Positions 57,769-63,502 of a stretch of DNA of 64,000 nucleotides are shown piece by piece. The stretch is from Candidatus Methanomethylophilaceae archaeon. GTDB lineage: Archaea > Thermoplasmatota > Thermoplasmata > Methanomassiliicoccales > Methanomethylophilaceae. The translations under genes were made by a program, and so were the position numbers. The first letter of the stretch is position 1. Every line of letters starts with the position of its first letter. The notes beneath the pieces were generated by a model. That model was given only the letters and a program-made list of their open reading frames with translations, was not told where the DNA came from and did not search any database. The stretch spans positions 1 to 64,000 of the forward strand of contig CALUOK010000012.1 in the NCBI GenBank assembly GCA_944322255.1, given 5' to 3'.

Positions 57769-58095
57769 GTGGAGTACGACATCAAGAGAGGCTGGTTCAA
57801 GAACATCGAGGGCGACCTGCTCGAGAAGATGATGGAGCAGGTCTTCGGCAACGTGAAGAGGGAGGGCGACCTGCTGGTCTCCACCTACGGGGTCCTCGAG
57901 AGGATCGAGGTCAGGATCCTGGCCAAGGACAAGCTGGACATCGCCACCGTCAACAAGGACGGCTGCTCCGCCGACGACGAGGCCATCCTCGACAGCAAGA
58001 GGCGCCTGAACGAGTTCGCCGAGAAGGCGACGGGGTTCGACGCCAAGGCCCGCATGAAAAGGGCCCAGAAGAAGGCCAAGGAAGGCACCCTCTGA
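57769..58095 (+). CDS. Small conserved protein, DUF5611-like
   Basis: 108 residues with an N-terminal mixed fold (EYDIKRGWFKNIEGD) and a basic helical C-terminus (ARMKRAQKKAKEGTL). I recall it as a small family of Thermoplasmata and Methanomassiliicoccales, but the name is uncertain. GTG start at 57769. It sits between raSEA and the ribosomal operon and may be co-transcribed with raSEA. Function unknown. Confidence 0.65.
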   Translation: MEYDIKRGWFKNIEGDLLEKMMEQVFGNVKREGDLLVSTYGVLERIEVRILAKDKLDIATVNKDGCSADDEAILDSKRRLNEFAEKATGFDAKARMKRAQKKAKEGTL

Positions 58096-58104
58096 GGGTC
58101 CTCC

Positions 58105-58134
58105 CCCCAAACCGCTTCCCCTTCCTTTCTTATT
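58105..58134 (+). terminator. Pyrimidine-rich end signal behind the DUF5611-like gene
   Basis: CCAAACCGCTTCCCC (58107-58121) matches 14 of 15 bases of the element behind fpoN, followed by TTCCTTTCTTATT, a U-rich stretch typical of archaeal termination. Confidence 0.45.
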
Positions 58135-58154
58135 ATAAGGGCGCGAGGGGCAGG

Positions 58155-58162
58155 TTTATATA
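58155..58162 (+). promoter_or_regulatory. TATA box of the L3 ribosomal protein operon
   Basis: TTTATATA, expected start near 58185, giving a leader of about 175 bases before the L3 ATG. Confidence 0.65.
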
Positions 58163-58184
58163 CGACCTACCGTTACAGCCCCTT

Positions 58185-58359
58185 TAGATTGGACATAATA
58201 GTGTCCGACCAGACGCATCGGGCAATGCGAACGCAACCCACGTCTGCCCTGCAGCCTTCGGGTTTCTAGGGGCGAATACGGCGTCACGGTCGGAGATTAA
58301 GACGTTCGTCTGATAAAGCGCGAGGTTAGCGAAGAGACCCTCGCAGGTATGTGTAAAAT
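58185..58359 (+). promoter_or_regulatory. Long structured leader of the L3 operon
   Basis: Hairpins in order: GGACA/TGTCC (58191-58206), GCAT/ATGC (58215-58228) inside GACG/CGTC, AGCC-TTCG-GGTT (58253-58264), AGAC-GTTC-GTCT (58300-58311) and GCGAGG/CCTCGC (58320-58344) just before the L3 start. GCCCCT near 58178 can pair with AGGGGC (58268-58273) if transcription begins earlier. This is much more structure than other leaders in the window; it may be a ribosomal-protein-binding autoregulatory site or a separate small RNA. Confidence 0.5.
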
Positions 58360-59358
58360 ATGCCGCAAAGGAGACGTCCTAAGAGAGGATCCAGGGCATT
58401 CGGCCCTAGGAAGAGAGCGCAGTCGCAGACACCCAGGCTCGACTCGTGGCCCGAGATCAACGGTACCCCCAAGATCCAGGGCTTCGCCGGCTACAAGGCC
58501 GGAATGACCCACGCGTTCATCGTGGACAAGAGCCCCAAGAGCACGACCTCCGGAATGGAGGTCCAGGTGCCCGTGACCGTCGTCGAAGTACCCCCCATGA
58601 AAATCGCAGCCGTCAGGTTCTACGAGAGCAGCATCGTCGGTCTCAAGACCGCCGGTGAGGTCTGGGCCAAAGACCTGGACCCGCTCCTCGGAAGGCGCCT
58701 CAGCGTCCCCAAGAACCACGACGAGGCCACTTTTGCCAGATACGACGGACTGGACATCGAGGATGTCCGTGTCCTCGCCTACACCCAGCCCAAGCTTGTC
58801 TCCGGAGTCCCCAAGAAGGTCCCCGACCTCATGGAGCTCAGGATCGGCGGAGGAACCATCGAGGAGAGGGTCGCCTACGCCAAGCAGATCCTCGGAACCG
58901 AGGTCAACTTCACCGACTTCGTCGCCGAGGGCGCCCTGACCGACGTCATCGCCGTCACCAAGGGAAAGGGATTCCAGGGTGTCACCAAGCGCTGGGGTGT
59001 CAAGCTCCTGTCCCACAGGAACAGCAAGCACCGCCGCGGAATCGGTAACCTCGGTCCCAAGAGACCCGGATACGTCAGGTCCACAGTGCCCGGATCCGGA
59101 CAGATGGGATACCACCAGAGGACCGAGTTCAACAAGAAGATCATCAAGGTCGGCACCGAGGGTTCCGAGGTCACCCCCAAGGGAGGATTCCTCAACTACG
59201 GAGAGGTCAGGAACACCTACGTACTGGTCCACGGCTCCGTTCCCGGGCCCACCAAGAGGCTCATCAGGTTCAGGGACGCCACCAGGATGCCCAAGAAGGC
59301 CGACACCGAGGCCGTCGACGTCACCTACGTCTCGACCGAGTCCAAGCAGGGGGCATGA
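58360..59358 (+). CDS. rpl3: Ribosomal protein L3
   Basis: Large-subunit protein near the peptidyl-transferase centre; 332 residues, normal archaeal length. MPQRRRPKRGSRAFGPRKRA start and the conserved KGFQGVTKRWGVK loop followed by GNLGPKRPGYVR. First gene of the S10-type operon. Its stop overlaps the alternative L4 start (ATGA at 59355). Confidence 0.97.
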   Translation: MPQRRRPKRGSRAFGPRKRAQSQTPRLDSWPEINGTPKIQGFAGYKAGMTHAFIVDKSPKSTTSGMEVQVPVTVVEVPPMKIAAVRFYESSIVGLKTAGEVWAKDLDPLLGRRLSVPKNHDEATFARYDGLDIEDVRVLAYTQPKLVSGVPKKVPDLMELRIGGGTIEERVAYAKQILGTEVNFTDFVAEGALTDVIAVTKGKGFQGVTKRWGVKLLSHRNSKHRRGIGNLGPKRPGYVRSTVPGSGQMGYHQRTEFNKKIIKVGTEGSEVTPKGGFLNYGEVRNTYVLVHGSVPGPTKRLIRFRDATRMPKKADTEAVDVTYVSTESKQGA

Positions 59359-62748: not shown

Positions 62749-62952
62749 ATGGCCGCACTCAAGACCGCAGACATCAGGAACATGAGCGTCGAGGAGCGCA
62801 ACCAGAAACTCAAGGAGCTCCGCGACGAGCTGATGCACGAGAGGGGAGTCTCCGCCATGGGCGGCGCCCCCTCGAGCCCCGGCGCCATCCGCGCCCTCAG
62901 GCTCAACATCGCACGCATCCTGACCGTCCAGAAGGAGGAGGAAGAGATCTGA
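62749..62952 (+). CDS. rpl29: Ribosomal protein L29
   Basis: 67 residues, two-helix hairpin: DIRNMSVEERNQKLKELRDEL and a second helix ending PGAIRALRLNIARILTVQKEEEEI. Shares a base with the aIF1 start (TGATG). Confidence 0.95.
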   Translation: MAALKTADIRNMSVEERNQKLKELRDELMHERGVSAMGGAPSSPGAIRALRLNIARILTVQKEEEEI

Positions 62953-63251
62953 TGGCCGAGATCTGCCCAGTATGCGGATTGCCTAAGGAGCTGTGCATGT
63001 GCGAGGAGATCGCACGCGAGCAGCAGACGGTGAGGATCTCGATTGACAGCCGCAGATACGGAAAGACCGTTACCGTGATCGACGGTATCGATGAGAACGA
63101 CATCGACATCGGCGATCTTGCCAAGCAGCTGAAGAACAAATGCGCCGCCGGCGGAACATGCAAGGACGGGCGCATCGAGCTCCAGGGCGACCACAAGAAG
63201 AGGGTCAAGACAGTCCTGGAGGAAATGGGATTCCGCACCGAGGTCAGATGA
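62952..63251 (+). CDS. Translation initiation factor aIF1 (SUI1 family)
   Basis: Helps select the start codon. The N-terminal ICPVCGLPKELCMCEEIAREQQ is a short cysteine motif of archaeal members; the SUI1 core has KTVTVIDGID and AGGTCKDGRIELQGDHKKRVKTVLEEMGF. 99 residues. Overlaps the next gene by ATGA. Confidence 0.95.
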   Translation: MAEICPVCGLPKELCMCEEIAREQQTVRISIDSRRYGKTVTVIDGIDENDIDIGDLAKQLKNKCAAGGTCKDGRIELQGDHKKRVKTVLEEMGFRTEVR

Positions 63252-63502
63252 GGGACAATCGCTTCGTGAGAACTGAGCTCATTGGATTGGACGTGGAAGT
63301 GCTGTCTGAGCCATTCTCCGGCATAGCCGGAAAGGTGGTCGACGAGACGAAAAACACGTTCACCATCGAATCGGCCGGAACTGAGAGAATGGTACCCAAA
63401 CCAGGCAATGAGTTCAGGTTCGCATACGAAGGCAGGACCATCGACATCAGAGGATCAGATATATTGCACCGACCAGAGGACAGAATCAAGAAGGTTAGGT
63501 GA
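63248..63502 (+). CDS. rnp1: RNase P protein component 1 (Rpp29/Pop4)
   Basis: 84 residues; ELIGLDVEVLSEPFSGIAGKVVDETKNTFTIES and the Sm-like barrel ending DIRGSDILHRPEDR. Helps the RNase P RNA process tRNA 5' ends. Its place between aIF1 and S17 is standard in archaea. Confidence 0.95.
   Translation: MRDNRFVRTELIGLDVEVLSEPFSGIAGKVVDETKNTFTIESAGTERMVPKPGNEFRFAYEGRTIDIRGSDILHRPEDRIKKVR

Follow-up and report, generated by a model that had tools for sequence, protein, structure and literature searches.

The leader that precedes the gene for ribosomal protein L3 in a genome of Candidatus Methanomethylophilaceae (positions 58186 to 58359 of the window, the whole 64,000-nucleotide stretch of DNA analyzed) is probably the 5′ untranslated region of the L3 mRNA, carrying a cis-acting ribosomal protein leader domain whose likeliest ligand is L4, followed by L3. 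At its heart is a three-way junction that recurs before L3 in most of the phylum Thermoplasmatota. The features of the region are collected in Table 1.

Table 1. Promoter, leader elements, and first gene of the L3 operon, with positions in the window
Feature	Positions	Strand	Basis or remark
TATA box TTTATATA of the L3 operon promoter	58155-58162	+	Sequence; spacing to the core
P1, 5′ hairpin GGACA...UGUCC	58191-58206	+	Same shape, with other sequences, in relatives
Conserved three-way-junction core, with P2 as its closing helix	58204-58294	+	Covariation; phylum-wide presence
P3, GGG-CAA-UGC...GCA-A-CCC	58220-58239	+	Alignments
P4, stem 58245-58250 with 58269-58274	58245-58274	+	Two-sided changes at all 6 pairs
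P5, small hairpin AGAC-GUUC-GUCU	58300-58311	+	Sequence differs in the order's other families
P6, hairpin GCGAGG...CCUCGC, its end 15 nt short of the L3 ATG	58320-58344	+	Variants in relatives
Candidate alternative hairpin CGCA-GGUA-UGUG, excluding P6	58343-58353	+	Sequence in family f1
Gene for ribosomal protein L3, first of the operon	58360-59358	+	ATG at 58360

The promoter places the structure on the L3 transcript. Transcription of the operon, which runs L3-L4-L23-L2-S19-L22-S3-L29-SUI1 and onward, is predicted to start near 58186 (A/G-GAUU), about 25 to 27 nt past the center of the TATA box. The resulting predicted leader of about 174 nt agrees with the roughly 175 bases of the original prediction, and, judged by the position and spacing of the TATA box, the start site does not lie close to the L3 ATG. 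A TATA element is found 51 to 56 nt 5′ of the core motif CCAGAC in 51 of the 52 readable L3-upstream regions of the order Methanomassiliicoccales, and in lineages outside the order this spacing is 33 to 56 nt. The distance from the end of the core to the L3 start is 13 to 21 nt in Thermoplasmatales and the relatives of Aciduliprofundum and 53 to 106 nt elsewhere, and in every lineage examined the core lies on the L3 strand, at most about 110 nt from the gene. This near-fixed promoter spacing and constant closeness to L3 argue that the core is the 5′ end of the L3 mRNA and not a neighbor of it; read from these distances, the core would be transcribed as part of that mRNA, as had been proposed. 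No T-run terminator was found in 58090-58420, which fits an action on translation.

Several other observations concern the surroundings of the leader. A small protein gene (57769-58095, 108 amino acids) sits directly 5′ of the L3 promoter; the end of this gene can be recognized ahead of the leader in family f2 and in most genomes of the genus, and much of the remaining order has other genes in its place. An out-of-frame ATG at 58349, 11 nt 5′ of the L3 ATG and directly after AGGU, opens a frame of 52 codons (58349-58507), which is probably incidental, as it is not kept in other families of the order. Farther downstream, after L29, positions 62952-63502 hold SUI1/aIF1 and, judging from its translation, probably an Rpp29-like RNase P protein inside the ribosomal protein operon.

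The leader, which is single copy in the source genome, folds at −62.4 kcal/mol, compared with −51.6 ± 4.0 for shuffled sequences (z = −2.7; 1 of 200 shuffles as low), while its antisense strand reaches a z of only −1.15. Within the core, P2 closes P3 and the variable arm P4. Its outer pairs (58204-58210 with 58288-58294) and inner pairs (58212-58216 with 58281-58285) are interrupted by A58211 opposite A58286-C58287, an A/AC internal loop. P3 has the consensus GGG-CAA-UGC...GCA-W-CCC, that is, GGG/CCC pairs, a CAA/W internal loop, and then UGC/GCA pairs; the outer GGG/CCC and the CAA bulge are nearly invariant, and the three inner pairs covary (UGC/GCA, UUC/GAA, UCC/GGA, and CCA/UGG). P4 varies in sequence but preserves its pairing, and in the source species it is UUCG capped (CCUUCGGG at about 58255-58262). 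Upstream, P1 takes forms such as GAACG/CGUUC and GCUC/GAGC in relatives, and it competes with the base of P2, which its 3′ strand overlaps. The original prediction had described at least five hairpins, two of them with UUCG- or GUUC-type loops and one ending 15 bases before the L3 ATG. Those it named exist, at the tip of P4, at P5, and at P6, respectively. The picture of five independent local hairpins is not quite right: three of the five form one junction domain, and the 5′ hairpin competes with the base of P2.

Conservation of the pairing, the check set beforehand, was found in all three sets of sequences compared. L3 was located in 53 of 60 related genomes, and the core was present in every one of the 52 readable upstream regions. 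These share an invariant frame consisting of CCAGAC, five bases, GGGCAATG, a short loop, CA-N-CCC, a variable arm, and G-Y-CACGG. The order alignment, A1, which was aligned on sequence alone and from which the structure was itself partly read, contains 14 pairs with two-sided changes, compared with 6.6 in shuffles (a level reached by 0 of 500), and its covariation signal collapses once pairing partners are slid. Two broader sets were aligned to a covariance model. The class and phylum set, A2, contains 185 two-sided (double-change) cells, compared with 63 in shuffles. In the named set from a scan of the whole collection, A3, there are 360 such cells against 133, and the covariation score is 0.438 against 0.150 in shuffles and at most 0.113 with partners slid, for sequences chosen with a pattern that already favors R-Y and K-M at three of the covarying pairs. 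Individual changes in A3 are informative too: the pair beside the A/AC loop switches from G-C to U-A (65:13), another changes from A-U to G-C (43:34), and P4 displays pairs of nearly every type. Unlike these covarying helices, the CCA, AC, GGG, CAA, and CCC of the core hardly vary.

The covariance model R1 matches 227 of 390 Thermoplasmatota genomes, with one match in each, and all 33 matches fetched from outside the order lie just 5′ of L3 on the same strand. Applied to 85,000 genomes, the core DNA pattern found at least 116 stretches, of which 80 loci were listed; among those listed, 74 are directly 5′ of L3 on the same strand, two are proteobacterial chance matches without an R1 match, and four lie near the end of the retrieved stretch. 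Carriers include Ferroplasma acidarmanus, Aciduliprofundum, DHVE2, Poseidoniales, Marine Group II, Marine Group III, and Methanomethylophilus, and the order L3-L4-L23-L2-S19-L22-S3-L29 is kept downstream wherever the sequence extends far enough. Among 14 genomes scored as negative, 6 (families f9 and f10) carry diverged copies before L3. The other 8, all those of family f7, a high-GC family of the same class, have no such domain (loci L247-L253 and L255); there the TATA box lies near the L3 start, the leader is short, and several have a GGAGG-type Shine-Dalgarno sequence. Its wide presence, together with its loss in family f7, indicates that the domain is ancient in the phylum but dispensable.

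Three labels in these collections are at odds with their contents. A contig labeled Halobacteriales MAG107 (L174) has the same leader, and its L3 is most like the Methanomassiliicoccales L3 (59%); it is probably mislabeled or misbinned. Likewise, loci labeled Rhodobiaceae and Neomarinimicrobiota (L161 and L192) hold archaeal L3 genes with the core leader and are probably misbinned sequence of marine Group II/III.

The stretch between the core and L3 is less uniform. In family f1, relatives carry P6 as GCGAGA/UCUCGC or GUGAGA/UCUCAC. Alternatively, the 3′ end of P6 can fold into UCGCA-GG(U)A-UGUGA, which surrounds a Shine-Dalgarno-like AGG; in the source genome, the corresponding candidate hairpin encloses AGGU (58345-58348). 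Elsewhere in the order, a CUCUC element can pair either upstream with GAGAG or with a GGGAG Shine-Dalgarno sequence, the latter pairing reaching nine perfect pairs (GAUUCUCUC/GGGAGAAUC). Two competing states between the core and the L3 start codon are therefore plausible from the base pairing available. Because purine-rich Shine-Dalgarno sequences easily pair with CUCUC, we treat such a switch as an inference, and since P5, P6, and the Shine-Dalgarno region vary between families, it would not be one conserved device.

Comparison with known systems points to a ribosomal leader with a new fold and an unusually wide distribution. Rfam 15 scans of 13 such leaders yielded no ribosomal-leader match, down to an E value of 10 for the source leader and of 2 for the leaders of 12 relatives; the sole result, a weak CRISPR-repeat match, is irrelevant. 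Among the papers searched, none combined "Thermoplasmata" and "ribosomal leader." The nearest case is the Archaeoglobi L4 leader, a prediction that its authors considered borderline and that stands before rplC-rplD (Eckert and Weinberg 2020, PMC7247131). It too is a structured leader candidate, and the archaeal genes that follow it (rplC, rplD, rplW, and rplB) are the same, but it is confined to Archaeoglobi; it was compared here by its published description. In bacteria, uL4 binds a long structured leader to control the S10 operon; the E. coli version, restricted to some gammaproteobacteria, acts through a Rho-independent attenuator as well as on translation (PMC10931766). That leader also is long and structured and precedes an operon encoding L3, L4, L23, L2, S19, L22, S3, and L29, although it includes an intrinsic terminator of a kind missing from the region scanned here, and the Rfam scan revealed no similarity.

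Two other kinds of leader resemble the domain in form. The S15 (uS15) leaders of Bacillus and Thermus are three-way junctions that mimic a 16S junction (PMC10931766). They share with the present leader a junction stabilized by a ribosomal protein to block initiation, which is only proposed here, and they differ in operon, sequence, ligand, and mimicry. Archaeal L7Ae binds a k-turn in its own leader (PMC5539422, PMC6298567), likewise an asymmetric internal loop in an archaeal leader, with ribosomal protein binding known in the case of L7Ae. Here, however, the three-nucleotide CAA bulge is followed not by tandem G.A pairs but by a Watson-Crick pair (U-A in 75 of 78 A3 sequences and C-G in 2), and a kink-turn identity was rejected on this ground.

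A mimic of rRNA was sought in several ways. Model, motif, and internal-loop scans of the 16S and 23S rRNAs of relatives gave weak matches only and no convincing mimic, including for the CAA/W and A/AC loops; BLAST of leaders against 23S found none; and the covariance model run against 23S loci with filters off reached a best E value of 1.3. Two candidates were rejected. The 23S segment GGGCAAACYGAAUCCC apparently forms no GGG/CCC hairpin, its CCC pairing downstream in domain I folds, and CCAGACAAUAGGG is missing from one relative that carries the leader. Leaders without an evident rRNA mimic have also been reported (PMC7247131).

Autogenous control by a ribosomal protein encoded in the operon is most likely the best reading of this arrangement. 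It draws on the operon-specific position, the structure close to the site of translation initiation, the lack of a T-run terminator, and precedent (PMC7247131, PMC10931766). The gene content of the operon singles out no ligand, since the whole order from L3 to L29 is retained. Binding of L3, L4, or L2, the proteins named in the original prediction, is plausible. Going by the recurrence of ligands from one lineage to another, we make L4 a tentative first choice, at somewhat under an even chance. L3 is the second candidate and, taken singly, an unlikely one; like the choice of L4, this is a judgment and not a computation. By the same kind of judgment, L2, L23, other ribosomal proteins, and ligands of other kinds share the remainder. 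We consider it possible, if on the doubtful side, that the leader goes back to the ancestor of most Thermoplasmatota, has a ligand new to leaders (e.g., L3), and uses a fold that does not copy an rRNA site.

The same position could be occupied by a cis-acting leader of the L3 operon that responds to something else, such as a different RNA-binding protein, a metabolite, an ion, or the ribosome itself acting on an element of mRNA structure or stability. The failure to find an rRNA mimic speaks for this idea, as do the invariant loops set within covarying helices, which look as aptamer-like as they look protein-site-like. Nevertheless, all known ribosomal leaders bind the product of a regulated gene, though some RNAs before ribosomal protein genes may bind no ribosomal protein (PMC7247131), and this leader is associated exclusively with one ribosomal protein operon, so we regard a ligand of this sort as unlikely. 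An independent RNA was the alternative in the original prediction. Such a noncoding RNA would act in trans, processed from the mRNA or terminated ahead of it, and the large compact fold, strong sequence conservation, and fixed 5′ end would suit an RNA gene equally well. It is now strongly disfavored: at about 160 loci (species partly shared between sets), the domain is always on the L3 strand and near L3 despite changing upstream genes, in several lineages no more than 13 to 21 nt separate its end from the start codon, and a T-run terminator is lacking. RNase P RNA (RF00373) and SRP RNA (RF01857) have no match in the window, and each has a single good match elsewhere in the genome. As for ordinary GC-rich intergenic sequence with chance hairpins, the modest single-sequence z score would allow it, but conservation across the phylum and covariation rule it out.

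Returning to autogenous control, the sequences show the domain with its covariation, position, and promoter spacing, and from them we infer protein binding, the identity of the protein, translational repression, and the switch. When one of the operon's ribosomal proteins, likeliest L4 and next L3, is in excess over available rRNA, it would bind the junction and stabilize both P2 and the folding near the start codon, leading to less translation initiation at L3 and hence at coupled genes. With the junction so near the start codon in Thermoplasmatales, a bound protein could block initiation directly. In Methanomassiliicoccales, the signal would be relayed by hairpins of the P5/P6 type, which are in competition with pairing of the Shine-Dalgarno region.

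To our knowledge, few ribosomal leaders have been described from archaea, and leaders in general are mostly restricted to small lineages. The leader described here spans acidophilic Thermoplasmatales, marine Groups II and III, relatives of Aciduliprofundum, and gut methanogens, and it heads the largest ribosomal protein operon. The loss in family f7 provides a natural control. With a core of about 90 nt, nearly invariant loops, and a short list of candidate ligands, the leader makes the control of ribosome synthesis in archaea testable.
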